64,000 nt of DNA, taken from assembly GCF_026340655.1 (NCBI RefSeq), contig NZ_JAPEOZ010000001.1, positions 5,456,001-5,520,000 of the forward strand. Direction: 5' to 3'. The notes beneath the pieces were generated by a model. That model worked only from the letters and a program-made list of their open reading frames with translations. It had not been told where the DNA came from and ran no database searches. Positions within the stretch are counted from its first letter, which is position 1. Each line of letters begins with the position of its first letter. This DNA comes from Streptomyces sp. NBC_01275 (GTDB taxonomy: Bacteria > Actinomycetota > Actinomycetes > Streptomycetales > Streptomycetaceae). A program made the position numbers and the translations under genes. Positions 1 through 9,091 of the stretch are shown here, piece by piece.

Positions 1-110
1 GGGCGGTGCTCGACGGGGTCGCCCGCTCGGTGATGATGGACCACCGCGCCAGGGTCCGGTCGGCGCTGCGCACACTGTCGGCGGAAGCCGTGGAACAGAG
101 GAGCGCGTGA
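1..110 (+). CDS. C-terminal end of an upstream gene in the CHAT cassette (partial)
   Basis: Reading frame 3 is open from the window edge to a TGA at 108-110 and encodes about 35 residues ending in LSAEAVEQRSA. The stop overlaps the GTG/ATG start of the next gene (GTG at 107, ATG at 110), which indicates translational coupling and a shared operon with the 463-residue and TPR-CHAT proteins. The visible tail is charged and probably helical, with no recognisable domain. The identity of the protein cannot be read from this fragment; given the neighbours, it may be a small adaptor or sensor of the same conflict cassette (inference). Confidence 0.6.
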   Translation, partial: AVLDGVARSVMMDHRARVRSALRTLSAEAVEQRSA

Positions 111-1498
111 TGGCGGGGGCCCACGTCGACGTCCACGTCACCCGGGGCGAGGACGGCACGATCCGGGTAGCCGCCGGTCCCGCCTTCGGACAGACCGAGG
201 CCTACGACGATTTCGGCGCCGTCGGCCCCGACTTCACCCGTGCCGTCCTCGACGTCGCGGGAGCGGTGCTGACCTGGCCGGTCCTCGGCGACCCGGGTCC
301 GCCGGTGGCGGAGGTGCATGACGTGGGGCGGGCGCAGCAGTGGCTGTGGGCGCTCTACGGCGAGCGCGTCGCCGCCGCCGTCCACGACTGCGCCTCGGGG
401 CCCCCGGACGCCGTACGAGCGGCCGCCGACCCGACCGCTCTCGCGGGCGCCGCCGCCCGGCTCGGGTTCGGGCACTGGGCGGCCCGCTGGTGGCCGACGT
501 CGTACGCGGACGGGATACCGGCGCTCGAACCGGACGTGCTCGGACTGGAGTTGGCCGCGCTCACCCACCGGTGCCAGCAGCTGTTCGACGACTTCGGCGA
601 CCAGCCCGACGACTGCGCGGCCGAACTGATCGAGGACCATCGGGCCGCCCTCGACCCGCTGGTCGAGTGGTGGCGCACGGCACCGCAACCGGCGGACACC
701 GCACGTCACTTGGAGGGCGTCCTGCGGTTGCTCGACGACGCGGCGGACGCCGCCGGGCTGGACCTGGACCTCGGCCTGGACCTCGGCCTGGACCTCGGCC
801 TGGACCTCGGCCTGGACCTCGGCCTGGACTTTGACCGGGACCGGGACCGGGACCGGGACCGGGACCAGGACCGGGACCTGGACGGACGCCGTCCCGCCGG
901 TACGCCGGTCGATCCCGGCGCGCTGTTCGCGCGGCCCGTCGACGGCTACGCCCTCGCAGCGGGCGAACCGCTGGTCGCGGGCGGCCGGGTGATCGCCCGT
1001 GGGCCGGGGACCAACGACTGGCGCCGCTATCCGCCCGGCTTCGTCGACGCCTCCGAGACCGCGGTGTCCTGGACCGCTCGTGCACTCGGCGCGCGACGGC
1101 AGATCGAGGTCGAGGTCGTCGCGCACATCGCCGCGCCCACCGCCGGGGCGCCCCTCGCGGCGGAGGTCCGCGTGGACGGCGGCCCCCGGAGACGGGTGCC
1201 CCTGGCCCGGCGGAACGACATGTGGACCGGCCGGGCGGACCTGGATCCGTACGTTTCGGCCGGTGCCGTACCGCCGCGTTTCGAGGTGGGGGTGCTGCTG
1301 CCGGGATTCGACCCGGGTCCGGGCTCCGAAGGCCGTGCCGACCGCGACGCGATCCGCGCGCTGGCCCGGCGGCGGCTGGCCACCGCGGCCCAACCCCTCC
1401 CGTACGACGGTTCGTTGCACGACGGATCGCCGCACGACGCCTCCTCGGGGCCGTTCCTCGCCGAGATCGTCGCCGCCGCCACGGGTGAGGACTACTGA
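107..1498 (+). CDS. Uncharacterised partner protein of a TPR-CHAT caspase-like protease
   Basis: The protein is 463 residues from GTG 107 (ATG 110 is equally possible) and is preceded by a GAGGAG ribosome binding site at about 98-103. It has no signal peptide or membrane segment, so it is probably cytosolic. Residues 1-215 look like a conserved, mainly helical domain. Residues about 218-259 are a low-complexity linker of LDLG repeats followed by DR repeats. The last 200 residues look like a beta-rich domain ending in a charged tail. I do not recognise a catalytic motif. The gene overlaps its upstream neighbour and stops 3 bp before the TPR-CHAT gene, so the two products very likely work together, possibly with this one as sensor, adaptor or substrate (inference). 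Resemblance to the CATRA-type partners described for caspase/TPR systems is a possibility that needs a profile search. Confidence 0.75.
   Translation: MMAGAHVDVHVTRGEDGTIRVAAGPAFGQTEAYDDFGAVGPDFTRAVLDVAGAVLTWPVLGDPGPPVAEVHDVGRAQQWLWALYGERVAAAVHDCASGPPDAVRAAADPTALAGAAARLGFGHWAARWWPTSYADGIPALEPDVLGLELAALTHRCQQLFDDFGDQPDDCAAELIEDHRAALDPLVEWWRTAPQPADTARHLEGVLRLLDDAADAAGLDLDLGLDLGLDLGLDLGLDLGLDFDRDRDRDRDRDQDRDLDGRRPAGTPVDPGALFARPVDGYALAAGEPLVAGGRVIARGPGTNDWRRYPPGFVDASETAVSWTARALGARRQIEVEVVAHIAAPTAGAPLAAEVRVDGGPRRRVPLARRNDMWTGRADLDPYVSAGAVPPRFEVGVLLPGFDPGPGSEGRADRDAIRALARRRLATAAQPLPYDGSLHDGSPHDASSGPFLAEIVAAATGEDY
770..876 (+). repeat. In-frame microsatellites coding LDLG and DR repeats
   Basis: Five consecutive copies of the 12-mer CTCGGCCTGGAC occupy 770-829. 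They are followed by a run of the 6-mer CCGGGA (one copy reads CCAGGA) at 835-876. Both units are multiples of three, so changes in copy number keep the reading frame open and only lengthen or shorten the interdomain linker of the cassette's middle protein. Confidence 0.9.
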
Positions 1499-1501
1499 CG
1501 G

Positions 1502-4468
1502 ATGCCGGACGAGGAGGTCGACGCGGTGGCGCCGATGTACGGAGAGCCCTTCGACAGTGCTCTCGCCCGGGCCGAGGAACTTCAGTCGGCCGCCGATCAC
1601 GCCGCCGCGCTCGCCGTCTACGAGGAGCTGCTCACCGTGGCCGAGTCCTTCGAGGACTCGCCCGACGTGCGGTTCCTGCGGGCGCATCTGCTGGCGAACA
1701 TCGCGAGCGTCCAGCTCACCGCCACGAACCTGGTCGAGGCGGAGGACGCCGACAAGCGGTCCCGTGCCCTGCTGGACGGCATCGCGTCGGCGCCGATGGG
1801 GCCGCGCGGCCGTCAACTGTGGCTGGAGATGCTGCTGAGGACGCTGCTCGCCCGAGCCGACCTGCTGCGCAGGACCGGGCGGCTGGACGAGGCGCTGGCC
1901 TGTCTCGACGAGGCGGCGGTCAGGCTGCCCGAGTTCGACGACCCCGACGGACTGCGCACCGCCGAACTCGGCCTGAACCGGGTGCATCTGCTGATCGACC
2001 GGGGCGAGTGGGGAGCGGCCGAGGAGCAGGCCACGGCGCTGCTGTCCACCACGCCGACGACCGCCGTGGAGCCCATCGCGCGGCTGCTGATCGCCCTCGG
2101 TCTGATCTGCGCCTCGACCGGGCGGTTCGACGCGGCCGAGGACTACTTCGCCCGCGCGGAGGACCACTTCCGGGCGAGGGGGGACACCGGTGAGCTGCAG
2201 TCGCTGCTCGCGCACCGGGCGTACAACGCGATGCACCGGGGCGAACTCGACCTCGCGGAGCGGTTGTTCGCGGAGGCGTCCGCGTTCTTCGAACGGCAGG
2301 GGCGGTTCGGCGATCTGGCGGTCTGCGAGCAGGCCCGCAGCTTTCTCGCCGGCCGGCGTGGCGACGCGACGGGCGCGGAGGACCTGCTGGCGGCGAGCCT
2401 GGCCCGGTTCGAACGGCTCGGCGCCTCGATCGCCGCCGCCGACACCATGCTGCTGGGCGCCCAACACGCGTACGACCGGGGCGACGTCGACGAGATGAAG
2501 CGGCTGGCCCAGGAAGCCCGGGACGTGTACCAGGAGCGGGAGGTGTACGAGCGGTGCGCACAGGTCGACCTCATGCTCGCGAGGACCCTCGAGGACAACC
2601 TGAACCGGACGGACCACGGCGAGCGCGAGCGCGAGTCCATCGACAACGCGCTCTCCCTCGCCCTCCCCGCAGCGCTGGCCCTGGAGGCCGCCCGCTTCGA
2701 CTTCGTCACCGCCCACGCGCGCAGTCAGTGGCTGGAACTGGCGGACAAAGCCATGGAGTTGGTCTTCCGCCTCGCGATACGCCGGCAGGACCAGGGCCTG
2801 CTCTTCGAGCTGGCGGAACACCGCTGCGCGGGCGCCTCGCTGGCCCTGGACCGTACGCCGCCCTCCGAGCCGGTCGGGGACCGGGCGTCGGTCTTCCCTA
2901 GTGCGGCCATGAAGGCGTACGGCCACCCCGAGGACGGCGACGCCGCGATGACGCTCGGGGGGGTCGCGGCGGAGGCCGCCGCCTCCGCGGGCCTGCGCGT
3001 GGCGCCGCCGCCGAAGGTGCGGATGTCGGCGCAGTCGGGCCCGGGCCGCGTCGCGCTCCAGGAGTACATCGCGGCGGCCGAGTTCCGCTATCACCGGCGG
3101 ATCGTGAACGAGGAGGAGACGCCGTTCTGGATCACCGAGGACCTGACGAGCCGCCCGGTGGTCCAGGTCCGGCTGGCCGACGCCGGCGACCTGTTCATGA
3201 CCTGGACGTGGGCCGGCGGGGCCCGGGGGTTCGGCACCGGTCACGGGCCCGGCACCGAAGTCGACCGGGCGGTACGGGCGTTGGCCGACGCGCTGCCGGG
3301 CACGGGCGACGGAGCGGACAGCGGAGCGGAGGGGATGCGGCGGGCGTTCGACTCGGGCGCGATGGCCGAGCACCGGACCGAACGCCGGCTGGCGCGGGAG
3401 CTGGCCGAGGCGCTGTGGCCGGAAGGGCTGACGGCGCAGATCCGCCAGGTGTCGGAGCGGGCGGGCCGTCCGCTGGTACGGATCCAGCCGTCGCCCCGGG
3501 TCGCCCAGGTCCCCTGGGAGCTGCTGGCCGTCGACGACGGGACCGACGTACGGCTCATCGATCTGGCGGACGTGGTGACCACCGCGCCGACGTCGTTGCG
3601 ACGGCAGCGTCGCGCGACACCCCCGGAGCCGGAGCCGGAGCCGGACACGGACACGGACACAGCCGCGGACACCGATGCGAACGCCGGTACCGGCACGGTC
3701 GTCCTCGTCCTCGACCCCCGCGTGCCCGGATTCCGGGCCGACTCCCCGCTCGGCTCGGTCCTGGGGCCGCCCGGCTCGGATCCGGAGTTGCTGGCGTTCG
3801 TCCAGCGGCGTCTCGACGCGGGCGCCGTCGTACCGTCCGTCGCCACCCCGGCGGAGGCCTTCCGCCGCACCGACCTGGACCGGGACTGGCTGAGCGGCGC
3901 GCTCCGCGAGGGAGCGCGCAGGCTGATGTACGTCGGGCATGTGAGCGGCGCGCCGGTCGAGGGCGGGCAGAGCGAGGACGGCACGCTCCATCTGAGCTGC
4001 GGCCCGCAGACCGTCGGCCTGGCGGAACCGGTCCGCACCCATCGGCCGCTGTCGGCCAAGGACCTTCTGCTGGGCACGCTTCCGCTGCGCGCGGACGGCG
4101 AGCCGGGGGCGCGGATCTGGCCCGCGCCGCCGCGGGTCGCGCTGATCGGCTGCCAGAGCGGCGGCGATCTGCGGTTCGCCGAGTCGTTCGGCCTGGCGAC
4201 GGCGATGATCCACAACGGCGCCGAGCTGGTCACCGCCACCCGCTGGGTGCTGCCGACCAGCTTCGCCTTCCACCGGCTGGCCGGTCTGCCCGAGTCCGTA
4301 CGCCCGCTGTCGGAGGCGGTCATCGCCGTCGACGCCGCCCACGAGGACCCCGACCCCGTCGACCGGCTCGGCCGCTGGCAGCGCGAGCAGCTCGACCACT
4401 GGCGCACCGGGGGCCGGATCGAGCACTCGCCCCTGTTGTGGGCGGCGATGACCTGCATCGTCGTATGA
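1502..4468 (+). CDS. TPR-CHAT protein, caspase-like cysteine protease
   Basis: The 988-residue protein has tetratricopeptide-like helical repeats over about residues 20-430, a middle region, and a C-terminal CHAT domain from about residue 630. The putative catalytic dyad is visible as His813 in MYVGHVSG and Cys884 in ALIGCQSGG, the order and spacing expected of the caspase/separase-like CHAT fold. A second CHAT-typical motif, PRVAQVPWELL, sits near residue 668. An acidic EPEPEPDTDTD-type loop (about 705-735) interrupts the domain and may be a flexible or cleavable insert. ATG 1502 lies 3 bp after the upstream stop. The family cleaves protein partners such as gasdermins or Csx30 in known systems. 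The target here is unknown, and no gasdermin-like gene is visible on the sequenced side. A protease in a signal-triggered conflict cassette is the best reading. Confidence 0.88.
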   Translation: MPDEEVDAVAPMYGEPFDSALARAEELQSAADHAAALAVYEELLTVAESFEDSPDVRFLRAHLLANIASVQLTATNLVEAEDADKRSRALLDGIASAPMGPRGRQLWLEMLLRTLLARADLLRRTGRLDEALACLDEAAVRLPEFDDPDGLRTAELGLNRVHLLIDRGEWGAAEEQATALLSTTPTTAVEPIARLLIALGLICASTGRFDAAEDYFARAEDHFRARGDTGELQSLLAHRAYNAMHRGELDLAERLFAEASAFFERQGRFGDLAVCEQARSFLAGRRGDATGAEDLLAASLARFERLGASIAAADTMLLGAQHAYDRGDVDEMKRLAQEARDVYQEREVYERCAQVDLMLARTLEDNLNRTDHGERERESIDNALSLALPAALALEAARFDFVTAHARSQWLELADKAMELVFRLAIRRQDQGLLFELAEHRCAGASLALDRTPPSEPVGDRASVFPSAAMKAYGHPEDGDAAMTLGGVAAEAAASAGLRVAPPPKVRMSAQSGPGRVALQEYIAAAEFRYHRRIVNEEETPFWITEDLTSRPVVQVRLADAGDLFMTWTWAGGARGFGTGHGPGTEVDRAVRALADALPGTGDGADSGAEGMRRAFDSGAMAEHRTERRLARELAEALWPEGLTAQIRQVSERAGRPLVRIQPSPRVAQVPWELLAVDDGTDVRLIDLADVVTTAPTSLRRQRRATPPEPEPEPDTDTDTAADTDANAGTGTVVLVLDPRVPGFRADSPLGSVLGPPGSDPELLAFVQRRLDAGAVVPSVATPAEAFRRTDLDRDWLSGALREGARRLMYVGHVSGAPVEGGQSEDGTLHLSCGPQTVGLAEPVRTHRPLSAKDLLLGTLPLRADGEPGARIWPAPPRVALIGCQSGGDLRFAESFGLATAMIHNGAELVTATRWVLPTSFAFHRLAGLPESVRPLSEAVIAVDAAHEDPDPVDRLGRWQREQLDHWRTGGRIEHSPLLWAAMTCIVV

Positions 4469-5491: not shown

Positions 5492-8400
5492 TCAGCCCAG
5501 TTGCTTGATGGTGTCCCAGCCGCTGGACCTCAGCGTGGTGGCCGAGCCGACGGCGGTCGCGCCGCCCTCGTAGAGCAGCAGGGCGCCCGCCGCGTTGGTC
5601 GCCCAGATGTCGGGCAGGCCGTCGGCGGCGGTGTCGGGGCTGCCGTAGAGCTTGGGGAAGGCGGCCCGGGTGAAGGTGCCGGCGGCGTAGGTGTCGTCGC
5701 CGTCGAGGCTCCAGCCGGACTGGCCCAGGCTCTTGAGGACGGTGCCCACGCCGTCGCTGTCGAGGATGCCCTTGCGCAGGACGAGGTTTCCGGCGGCGGT
5801 GCGGTAGGTCATGTCGGCCGCGCCGTCGCCGTTGTAGTCGGCGATGGCCACGAAGTCCCGGTCGGCGTCCGCCCAGGAGGTGGTCGTCATCTGGGTGGCC
5901 TCGCTGAACGAACCGCCGCTGTAGCCGCTGAGGATCCACAGCTCGGCGCCGGCCGCGCCGCCTGCGACGAAGAGCTCCGGCTGGCCGTCCCCGGTGATGT
6001 CGCCCGCGGACTTGATCTCCGAGAAGGTAGACGGGTCGGGGGCGTTGGCCGGCAGCCGTACCTCGATGCGCTTGCTGACGTCGATCGCGCCGTAGCCGTC
6101 GCCCGGGTAGACGAAGAGCCGGCCGTCGGGGGTGCGGATGACCCAGTCGGTGACGCCGTCGCCGGGGGCGAAGTCGCCGTTGTGGGTGACCAGGGCGTAG
6201 GTGTCGGCGCCGTTCCAGATGTGCGGGGCGGTGCCGCCGTCCTTGATCAGGGTGCCCTTGTCGTGCGTCCCGAAGGCGCTGGAGATCCAGTCGCCGTTCT
6301 GGGACACCGAGTCGATCCAGAGGTTGCCGGCGGCGGTGACATGGGCGAAGTCGGCGGTGCCGTCGCCGTTGAGGTCGCCGGGGCCGTCGGCGGTGGAGCG
6401 GGGCTTGACGTAGAAGAAGTACTTGCGGGCGTTGGGGGAGATGTTGCCCGCCGTGTCGACCGACTTGACGTACAGGGTGTTGGGGCCGGCGGAGGGCGGC
6501 TTGATGCCGGTGACGGTGGCCGTCTTGACGGCCGTGGTGCAGGACTTGGTGAGGCCGCCCGAGGTGCCCTGCGAACCGCCGGCGCAGGCATAGCCGGCGT
6601 AGTTGGTGGAGTTGATGGACCAGACGAACTTCACGATGTCGGTCTCGGAGGACGAGCCCACCGCGAAGGTGAAGCTGCCGGAGTTGCCGAAGGGCTTGTC
6701 GGACCAGACGTCGGGCACGCTGTTGCCGTCGTCGTCGCCGGGGAAGTCCGTGGAGACGACGGGGGCGGGCGAGTCGGGCAGGTCGGTGTCGTAGGTGAAG
6801 CGGCACACGCCGTCCCCGCCGGTGGGCGCCCAGCCGCTGCTGGCCTTGTCGTCCCAGGCCCGTACCCGCCAGGAGTAGGTGACGCCGGTGGTCAGGGACG
6901 ACCTGATGGAGACTCCGCCGACCTCGCCGTTGGCGATGGACTTGGTGAAGGTCTTCTTCGTCGTGTCGGCCTTGCCGGTCTGCCAGAGCTCGAACTCGAG
7001 CTTGGAGAGGACGCCGTCGGGGTCGGTGGCCTTGCCGCTGATGGTGATCGTGTCGGCCTTGCCGACCTTGATGTACGGCGAGGCGCTGGTGTCGCAGGAG
7101 CCGGGGCTCATGGTGACGGACGTCGGGGTGTTCGGCTTCCGGTTGTAGGTGATCGACAGCGTCGGCGAACCGCCGCCCTCGGCCTGGAACTTCTTCCAGG
7201 AGTAGGTGTCCGTCTCCAGGCTGCTGGAGGAACCCGTCGGCGCGGAGGACGAAGTCGAGGCCACCAGGCCCACGTTGAAGCTGGTCAGACCGTCGTCCGC
7301 GGCGTCCTGGGCGAGTGTGGTGACCGTGAAGTTGACGTTGGCGTCCGGGCAGGAGGAGTTGGACTTCCAGCCGTAGGCGAAGGACTTGGAGGTGATCTTC
7401 CGCTTCCAGTCGGGCTGGCGGTTCCAGGTGGTCTTGGAGGTGAAGTCGCCGGTGCGCCACAGCTGGACCGTGCGCTTGCTGCAGGACCAGGAGTGGGTCT
7501 CCAGGACCTTCAGGGTGGCGCTGGAGACGTCCGCGCCCTTGATGGAGTTCTTCAGCTTCATCCGGAAGAACGAGCGGGCCGTGCCCCAGGTCTGCTTCTC
7601 GAAGCCGACGCGGGCTTCCTTGGTGTCCTCGTTGTAGTTGGCGCCGTCGTAGAAGCTGGAGCCCGGGTAGCGCTTGTAGACCGTGGTCCAGTTGGCGCGG
7701 ATGCCGGTCGTGGAGGGGTCGAGGAACAGCGGGTAGGTCAGGTCCTCGGTGTCCGCCAGGTAGGCGCCCGGCGGGGTGACGGTCAGCACGCCGTCCTCGA
7801 AGGCCGCCGCGGCCTCGGTCGCGTGGGCGCCTTCGCCGGGCCCGTTCACGGCCGGCAGGGCGAGCGTGTCGCTCGCGGCGCCGGCCGCCTCGTAGGCGAC
7901 CGGGTCGACTCCGGAGTCCTCGGCCCCCGCATCTTGGGCCCCCGCATCTTCGGCCCCTGCGTCCTCGGCCCCCGCCTCCTCCGCTCCCGGCTCGGTGGTC
8001 CGCGGTGCGTCCGGGTTCTCGTTCGGCACCTCGTCGGCCGGGGTGTCGGTCTCGCGCGCGGGGGCCTTCTCTACGACCTCGGGGTCCTCGTTGGCGCCGG
8101 TCGCGGCGTCCGGATCGGCGGACGCGGTGTCCGTGTCGTGCGCGCCCGCGGAGTCCCACAGGAAGGGGGTGGGGGAGACGGCTGTCTCCGTGCCGTCCTT
8201 GTCCTTGGCCATGAGCACGTCGGTGCCGGGGTCGAGGGTGAAGGAGAGGGTGGGCGAGGTGACGCGGTAGCGCGGCGGGTCGGCGGCGAGCCGCGTGGCG
8301 GCCTCGGGCGTGTGGACGACCAGGACGTGGGTGAAGCCGGTGTCCCGTGCGGACAGCATCAGGTCCACGCCGGGCAGCACGCCCTCGTACAGCGCGCGGT

Positions 8401-9091
8401 TGTCCTCGACCACCGGCTCGGGCAGCGTGCCGGGCCACTCGAACCCGATCTCGTGGCCCTCGGCGGTCATCGTCAGCAGCGGGGTCCAGGAGGTGGCGTC
8501 GTCGTCGATCTGCTCGGTGCCGCTGCTCCCGGAGCCGGCGCGGAACACGGCGGCCTGCACGGTCGTGGCCGAACCGGAGTTACGTGATCCGGAGTTGCCT
8601 GATCCGGATGTGTCCGTCGCCCCGGAGGCACGCGCCCCGGCCTTCTTCGCCGTCCCGCCCCCCTTCCCGCCCGCCGAGAACGTCACGGGATAGGGGCTGT
8701 TGACGGTGTGCCAGCCCTCGTCGTCCGCGCGCAGGGAGGTGTCGATCGGCGCCCATCGCCCCTTGGCGTTCTTCGCGCGCACGGGTGCGACGGACGCCTC
8801 GTAGGTGAACGTTCCGTCGGGGTTGGCGTACGTGGTGGAGAACTCGTCGGTGAGCGTGGCGACTTCGACCTGGTCGCCGGTGCTGCGCGCCCGGCGCTGG
8901 GCCTCGTCCTCGTCGACCGGCTGAGCGGCGCGCTTGGTCTTCGCGTCGGAGGCGGTCGTGCCGTCGTCCCGCAGGACGAGCGCCGCGCCGCCGCCGGCCA
9001 GCACCGCCAGTGCGACGGCGACGGCCAGGGCGCGCCGGACGCGCCTTCTGCCAGGGGGACTTGGTTCCGTGGCGGTGTCGAGGTCGCTCAA
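5492..9091 (-). CDS. Large secreted or surface-anchored protein with DNRLRE domain and FG-GAP repeats
   Basis: The protein is 1199 residues. A basic N-terminus and a hydrophobic segment (about residues 18-37) form a signal peptide or signal anchor. Residues about 330-400 are a low-complexity acidic region with EDAGAEDAG repeats. Residues about 455-645 match a DNRLRE-type carbohydrate-binding-like domain. Residues about 650-880 look like fibronectin/Ig-type folds. From about residue 890 there are five FG-GAP/VCBS blades with calcium-loop motifs such as DLNGDGTADF, DITGDGQPELF and DYNGDGAADM, enough for a beta-propeller. Such proteins commonly lie beside RHS genes in Streptomyces. It is divergent from the RHS toxin here, so it may help display, shell or deliver it (inference). 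No catalytic motif is visible. Confidence 0.85.
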   Translation of the reverse strand: MSDLDTATEPSPPGRRRVRRALAVAVALAVLAGGGAALVLRDDGTTASDAKTKRAAQPVDEDEAQRRARSTGDQVEVATLTDEFSTTYANPDGTFTYEASVAPVRAKNAKGRWAPIDTSLRADDEGWHTVNSPYPVTFSAGGKGGGTAKKAGARASGATDTSGSGNSGSRNSGSATTVQAAVFRAGSGSSGTEQIDDDATSWTPLLTMTAEGHEIGFEWPGTLPEPVVEDNRALYEGVLPGVDLMLSARDTGFTHVLVVHTPEAATRLAADPPRYRVTSPTLSFTLDPGTDVLMAKDKDGTETAVSPTPFLWDSAGAHDTDTASADPDAATGANEDPEVVEKAPARETDTPADEVPNENPDAPRTTEPGAEEAGAEDAGAEDAGAQDAGAEDSGVDPVAYEAAGAASDTLALPAVNGPGEGAHATEAAAAFEDGVLTVTPPGAYLADTEDLTYPLFLDPSTTGIRANWTTVYKRYPGSSFYDGANYNEDTKEARVGFEKQTWGTARSFFRMKLKNSIKGADVSSATLKVLETHSWSCSKRTVQLWRTGDFTSKTTWNRQPDWKRKITSKSFAYGWKSNSSCPDANVNFTVTTLAQDAADDGLTSFNVGLVASTSSSAPTGSSSSLETDTYSWKKFQAEGGGSPTLSITYNRKPNTPTSVTMSPGSCDTSASPYIKVGKADTITISGKATDPDGVLSKLEFELWQTGKADTTKKTFTKSIANGEVGGVSIRSSLTTGVTYSWRVRAWDDKASSGWAPTGGDGVCRFTYDTDLPDSPAPVVSTDFPGDDDGNSVPDVWSDKPFGNSGSFTFAVGSSSETDIVKFVWSINSTNYAGYACAGGSQGTSGGLTKSCTTAVKTATVTGIKPPSAGPNTLYVKSVDTAGNISPNARKYFFYVKPRSTADGPGDLNGDGTADFAHVTAAGNLWIDSVSQNGDWISSAFGTHDKGTLIKDGGTAPHIWNGADTYALVTHNGDFAPGDGVTDWVIRTPDGRLFVYPGDGYGAIDVSKRIEVRLPANAPDPSTFSEIKSAGDITGDGQPELFVAGGAAGAELWILSGYSGGSFSEATQMTTTSWADADRDFVAIADYNGDGAADMTYRTAAGNLVLRKGILDSDGVGTVLKSLGQSGWSLDGDDTYAAGTFTRAAFPKLYGSPDTAADGLPDIWATNAAGALLLYEGGATAVGSATTLRSSGWDTIKQLG

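Follow-up and report, generated by a model that had tools for sequence, protein, structure and literature searches.

The stretch analysed here (hereafter the window) consists of 64,000 nt of the genome of Streptomyces sp. NBC_01275 and opens with a cassette of tightly packed genes that ends in a predicted protease of the TPR-CHAT type. The first gene of the cassette, F1, encodes an upstream partner modelled as all-helical and reaches into the window only with its 3′ end (positions 1..110, + strand). Window position 1 is the window's edge and not a gene boundary: the full F1 frame comprises 480 codons (L006:10668-12110, corresponding to G000:C1:5454668-5456110), of which only the last 110 bases lie inside the window and the rest at G000:C1:5454668-5456000. 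The F1 stop codon (TGA, 108-110) shares one base with the ATG start codon (110) of the next gene, F3, in a TGATG overlap (108..112, + strand). The same 1-base overlap was found in 10 of 12 Streptomyces-type loci, and a 4-base overlap occurred in three distant loci. F3 (110..1498, + strand) was found, from its frame, family scans and a structural model, to encode a two-domain partner of an unnamed family. An initial annotation of this DNA had given that partner 463 residues; the gene is present, but the protein has 462 residues from the ATG at 110, the higher count starting from the GTG at 107. Three bases past the F3 stop codon begins the frame of the TPR-CHAT protein (1502..4468, + strand; 988 residues), which its frame, Pfam scans and relatives identify as a fusion of TPR and CHAT. 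The TGATG overlap and the 3-base gap bear out the initial description of three overlapping or nearly touching genes that end in TPR-CHAT.

The TPR region of the 988-residue protein spans about residues 112-353 (1835..2560, + strand; five stretches in Pfam, TPR_12 at 4.1e-9), and the CHAT protease domain, assigned by its match to PF12770, spans residues 629-985 (3386..4456, + strand). When the CHAT half (window 3146-4465) was scanned by itself, PF12770 matched above the Pfam cut-off (1.1e-10; 41.9 bits vs. 24); the family was not listed for this protein by a scan of all 988 residues, nor by a whole-genome PF12770 scan. Among aligned CHAT members, 27 of 29 matched PF12770 at E <= 0.01, and one of the 29 also matched Peptidase_C50, the separase family (E 0.0022). 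Alignment of relatives placed His813 in the motif YVGHV (codon at 3938..3940, + strand) and Cys884 in ALIGCQSGGD (codon at 4151..4153, + strand). Each residue was kept in 98 of 100 aligned loci and the other two were gapped, i.e., the pair is invariant in 98/98 ungapped relatives; it was likewise found in 29/29 rows of a second alignment and in 20/20 loci of the series L196-L215, these sets being overlapping. At the level of sequence, then, the His813/Cys884 pair is intact, as had been proposed. By profile match and by this pair the protein belongs to the CHAT family (PF12770) and is a predicted protease. Five other CHAT proteins are encoded in the same genome (G000:C1 at 1533885, 3514443, 5800587, 6714238, and 8606619).

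Conservation of the linkage in other genomes, named beforehand as a point on which the proposal could fail, was examined in a neighbourhood survey of 119 loci. Every one of these was fetched through a match to F1 or F3, and co-location thus tests the other members only; in the scan of named genomes the best 80 of 197 related loci were kept. The set is redundant, some genomes being represented twice (L037/L098, L039/L216, L043/L110, L044/L089, L047/L088), and amounts to about 77 effective F3 sequences at 80% identity. F1, F3, TPR, and CHAT were all present in 112 of the 119 loci. Five of the incomplete loci are truncated, either where a contig stops or where the fetched stretch does (L046, L077, L100, L107, L137), and two are remnants (L049, L116). 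The linkage is conserved across genera, and the four components very probably constitute one conserved module.

The gene order was F1-F3-TPR-CHAT in 104 loci and TPR-CHAT-F1-F3 in seven (L198-L201, L203, L204, L215), which come from a Mycobacterium-like genus and one other genus. In the six unfused loci of the swapped order, the aligned CHAT start lies 5-17 bases past the TPR stop, and 95-1200 bases lie between the pairs. Because the swapped loci keep each pair together, F1-F3 and TPR-CHAT are two coupled units that are kept side by side. TPR and CHAT are joined in a single frame in 39 of the 112 complete loci, the window's included, and are otherwise separate neighbours; L212, counted among the separate ones, is truly fused, its apparent order TPR-F1-F3-CHAT being due to the higher score of a separate TPR gene upstream. 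Since TPR and CHAT are separate genes in most loci, the cassette is a four-component module, fused here; a linked set had been rightly recognised in the initial annotation, but not its number of parts, given as three genes. Pairwise identities of the four components, compared over 111 of the 119 loci (the seven incomplete loci and L212 omitted), correlated at r 0.96-0.99. CHAT was the most conserved part (mean identity 0.567), followed by F1 (0.538), F3 (0.435), and TPR (0.414).

Several loci depart from the common arrangement. In L046 (genome G120), about 9 kb with other reading frames separates F3 from TPR-CHAT, either as an insertion or as a misassembly. Cassette remnants consisting of fragments of F3, F1, or the CHAT end were seen in L049, L116, G013, and G121. 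Loci L050, L051, and L052 represent a distant cassette type in the same genus, with separate TPR and CHAT genes, a short F3 linker, and none of the small gene F2 described below.

No Pfam, NCBIfam, or PADLOC family matched F3 above its cut-off, a single NCBIfam row being a chance one (E 5.5), and a search of solved structures by sequence with F3 matched none; in these libraries the partner has, as had been stated, no recognised domain. Structure modelling of F3, which had been suggested as a check, gave a model with a predicted local distance difference test (pLDDT) score of 77.4, consisting of an alpha+beta part (residues 1-214), a disordered stretch, an immunoglobulin (Ig)-like sandwich (about residues 293-405), and then a helix. 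The N-terminal alpha+beta region (110..751, + strand), delimited by the model and by conservation ranks, carries the conserved residues W78, W80, W123, W127, and W128, and the C-terminal beta-sandwich (986..1324, + strand) was recognised in the model by fold comparison. Repeat analysis of the linker found an Asp/Leu and Asp/Arg repeat array (758..883, + strand) of 21 copies of 6-base units. Both repeat patterns occurred in 1 of 117 F3 proteins, the window's own, and among 111 loci the linker measured 11-62 residues, with the maximum in the window. The repeat-built linker is therefore present as first noted, but it is not a conserved signal, and we rejected it as a key feature of F3. Acidic stretches of another kind can occur in the linkers of other species (L037).

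Just after the linker lies the motif YALAAG (F3 residues 280-285; 947..964, + strand), a conserved island in a low-confidence loop of the model. The pattern [FYW]ALAAG was present in 106 of the 117 F3 proteins, with one copy in each, and was absent from all of the F1, TPR, and CHAT parts searched. Y280 ranks second of the 462 F3 columns in information, while the flanks (270-274 and 286-290) rank mostly below 320th; pLDDT falls below 50 at residues 276-290, which span the motif. Additionally, F3 ends in an acidic-aromatic tail (GEDY; 1484..1495, + strand), and D-[F/Y] was found at the C-terminus of 93 of 106 F3 frames. From the model and these counts we infer that the island in its flexible loop and the conserved free C-terminus resemble docking or cleavage motifs.

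F1 likewise had no match above cut-off in Pfam, NCBIfam, or PADLOC, and solved structures searched by sequence gave none. A relative of F1 in L111 was modelled as all-helical (mean pLDDT 82.4), and fold comparison with the F1 model returned no match of weight.

Taken as a whole, the cassette looks like an undescribed molecular switch. Our preferred interpretation, which we hold tentatively and rate a little below an even chance, is a caspase-like protease module in which F3 is the likeliest docking partner or target of the active site. CHAT substrates are commonly encoded near the protease according to the excerpted text of PMC9729208, and reasoning from Craspase in this way makes F3 the foremost candidate for a target or inhibitor, ahead of F1 and F2. 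In the mechanism that we propose, the TPR arm would hold and gate the CHAT protease, as in TPR-CHAT/Csx29, and F1 and F3 would form an obligate regulatory pair that keeps CHAT off or presents a target to it. F3 would meet the active site via the YALAAG segment of its flexible inter-domain loop and via its acidic-aromatic C-terminus; once triggered, CHAT would cut F3 or let it go, which would free the Ig-like domain. The step that makes F3 the target or partner is, by analogy, plausible at about the same tentative level. F2 and an opposite-strand membrane gene may act as added regulators, the latter as a possible link to the membrane, and the module is probably cytosolic. Candidate outputs include cell death, development, or stress control.

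A number of observations weigh against this interpretation. An hhalign comparison of CHAT with the five other CHAT proteins of the genome aligned 54 columns round the Cys only, and none of the solved structures searched by sequence with CHAT matched. The placement of His813 and Cys884 as a dyad is a sequence-based assignment, and protease activity, formation of a complex, and cleavage of F3 are predictions. The parallel divergence of the four components is expected of any vertically inherited neighbours. The strict YALAAG-type motif is missing from 11 of the 117 F3 proteins. Instead of being cut, a conserved segment within so mobile a loop may offer F1 or TPR a strand to dock on. The low pLDDT of F3 may be due to a shallow alignment (50 rows), and the modelled fold of F1 offers no functional hint.

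The motif island bears equally on an alternative in which F3, together with F1, is a stable, securin-like inhibitor or pseudosubstrate seated in the CHAT active site, the true substrate is encoded elsewhere, and the trigger removes F3; a conserved segment in a flexible loop fits a pseudosubstrate as well as a substrate. Such an arrangement is consistent with the finding that F1 and F3 did not occur intact without the protease among 199 genomes, with the Peptidase_C50 match of the one CHAT member, and with the structural likeness of TPR-CHAT to separase described in the excerpted text of PMC9729208. That source also supplies the precedent of substrates encoded nearby, which runs counter to a substrate encoded elsewhere, and kinship to securin was not seen, no search having been aimed at one. 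We regard this alternative as unlikely.

Profile searches showed F1 in 16 of 199 Streptomyces genomes, and F3 and TPR-CHAT (E <= 1e-30) in the same 16. Outside those 16, we found an F3 fragment with a CHAT end in G079, CHAT ends in G013 and G121, and, in G054 and G148, two F3 matches of about 1e-4 that fall in the low-complexity linker. Among the 80 of 197 loci that were kept, the genera Streptomyces, Kitasatospora, Actinacidiphila, Kutzneria, Nocardia, Rhodococcus, Antrihabitans, and Phytomonospora are represented. F1 was near-core in a Nocardia-like genus (82 of 98 genomes) and occurred in 64 of 98 genomes of a Mycobacterium-like genus; a phylum-wide draw gave 11 of 396 genomes for F1 with a narrower model, and within the order to which the Nocardia-like genome G247 belongs, 46 of 298 genomes had F3. 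All of these profile-based counts may miss distant relatives. In a plasmid collection, F1 was present in six records, five of them Streptomyces records of 1.2-1.6 Mb; the plasmid annotations consulted list no features in the stretch concerned. Neither 50,697 phage records nor IMG/VR yielded F1, the only component searched there.

This distribution bears on whether the cassette serves in defence by abortive infection, TPR-CHAT sensing an infection and killing the cell by activating F1 or F3. The CHAT protease of Craspase is set off by foreign RNA (PMC9729208, in excerpt), and the patchy occurrence in Streptomyces (16/199), together with the plasmid records, would be in keeping with such a role. 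Against it stand the near-core and common occurrence of F1 in the Nocardia-like and Mycobacterium-like genera, its absence from the phage records and viral contigs searched, the lack of any PADLOC match or swapped effector, and the setting of the cassette, since 6 of 10 scanned window neighbours look metabolic or transport-related. We consider defence improbable. Because F1 is near-core in the Nocardia-like genus and was not found in phages or viral contigs, the module is not obviously a mobile defence island; the pattern of spread argues against such an island yet leaves room for a function in cell death or stress.

Other genes recur beside the cassette. F2, which encodes 140 residues and is divergent from F1, lies just outside the window (G000:C1:5454213-5454635; L006:10213-10635) and had no family match in the family-library and PADLOC scans. 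It occurs in 13 of the 199 Streptomyces genomes, all within the F1-positive 16, the three without F2 carrying the distant cassette type (G037, G156, G186), and of the 118 loci that have F1, 54 carry F2 on the other strand, upstream of F1. A membrane-type gene, judged by eye and belonging to one of two families, was found no farther than 3 kb from the cassette in 79 of 118 loci, a frequency given without a background rate; with one match taken per locus, it lies on the opposite strand in 79/79, upstream in 66 and downstream in 13. The Streptomyces family matches DUF3592, above cut-off in both members scanned (2/2), and the window strain's own gene (L006:9327-10124) scores 25.0 bits against a cut-off of 25.3; the second family, of about 265 residues and found in Nocardia and others, matched DUF3592 below cut-off in 2 of 5 scanned. 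Neighbour clustering over 117 loci revealed no universal family besides F1, F3, TPR, and CHAT.

The frequent membrane-type neighbour (DUF3592-type or similar) may also be read as a sign of a housekeeping or developmental complex, that is, a constitutive four-protein assembly, perhaps located at the membrane, for the processing of cellular proteins during growth or stress. Its widespread occurrence, mostly as a single copy per genome, the divergence of its components in step, and the position of CHAT as the most conserved part would suit such an assembly. The module is, however, dispensable in Streptomyces because it is absent from 183 of the 199 genomes, and the remnants L049 and L116 show loss. 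A housekeeping role is distinctly unlikely in our estimation, and the switch centred on F3 remains our preferred interpretation.

Other genes near the cassette were noted in passing. In 30 Nocardia- or Mycobacterium-like loci, L118 among them, a small gene that by eye resembles a lipoprotein gene was noted; 23 of these loci have it upstream on the opposite strand (median distance 131 bases), and in five it is upstream but on the same strand. Fifteen Streptomyces loci (L037, L042, L044, and others) carry a third small gene, possibly encoding a membrane protein, which lies upstream on the other strand. Upstream of the window's cassette, L006:760-4804 contains genes for an AurF-like protein, a second ferritin-like oxygenase, an ACP-like protein (by eye), and an AMP-ligase, and resembles a small biosynthetic cluster. 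On the other side, a gene for a long protein with an FG-GAP repeat adjoins the cassette (window 5492-9091, - strand).

The settings from which CHAT proteases are chiefly known are those of Craspase, gasdermin, and separase. The kind of protease encoded here is known, and its setting with F1 and F3 is unnamed in Pfam, NCBIfam, and PADLOC; no paper describing the cassette was found among the open-access papers listed by the searches, subscription papers and preprints being outside that scope. Should our interpretation hold, it would add a further CHAT setting, with two constant and unnamed protein families, in well-studied genera of Actinomycetes. It would also offer sharp handles: in F3 a short motif and the C-terminal tail, in CHAT a single cysteine.

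The cassette had been put forward as a possible new trigger-protease pairing related to the caspase/TPR conflict systems of multicellular bacteria. A linked CHAT set with partners of no known family was indeed found, but the proposed kinship was not supported, as the same four parts are kept, no PADLOC model matched, and F1 is near-core and was not found in the phage records or IMG/VR. The MoxR-vWA ternary, EACC2, and other conflict systems of multicellular bacteria share with the cassette caspase-like domains, TPRs, and an occurrence in Actinomycetes (PMC7159879, PMC8195603, both in excerpt), and the word CHAT is absent from the main texts of these two sources. Neither MoxR nor vWA was matched in Pfam scans of the cassette proteins and of 10 window neighbours, the neighbours of other loci having been clustered only. 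These systems further differ from the cassette in that no variable effector was seen here.

Bacterial gasdermin systems are similar in that a CHAT or caspase-like protease lies beside a candidate target. They differ in that the F3 model shows an alpha+beta part followed by a loop and an Ig-like sandwich, and in that four constant components are present here. Gasdermin was absent among the fold matches listed for the F3 model, no gasdermin profile search having been made; it is named as a possible CHAT target in the excerpted text of PMC9729208. Separase and securin offer a likeness by principle only, that of a caspase-like protease behind a helical repeat arm restrained by a partner (PMC9729208, in excerpt), and the cassette differs in that just 1 of the 29 CHAT members matches Peptidase_C50, and weakly. 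In Craspase, TPR-CHAT is autoinhibited until a trigger binds and then cuts Csx30 of the same locus, as the excerpted text of PMC9729208 relates. Among the 10 window neighbours no Cas7-11 (gRAMP) or Csx30 was named, and the 117 clustered loci held no universal extra family, no profile search for Cas7-11 or Csx30 having been made. The cassette shares with Csx29/Craspase a TPR arm joined to a CHAT domain with a His/Cys pair and partners encoded alongside (PMC9729208, in excerpt), whereas its own constant partners are F1 and F3 and its TPR and CHAT are often separate genes. It is conceivable, if on the unlikely side, that the module is a CRISPR-free actinobacterial switch working on the principle of Craspase or of separase-securin, possibly with a link to the membrane, which would be near-core in the Nocardia-like genus and common in the Mycobacterium-like one, with two new families, F1 and F3, as built-in regulator and target and YALAAG as the recognition or cleavage site.

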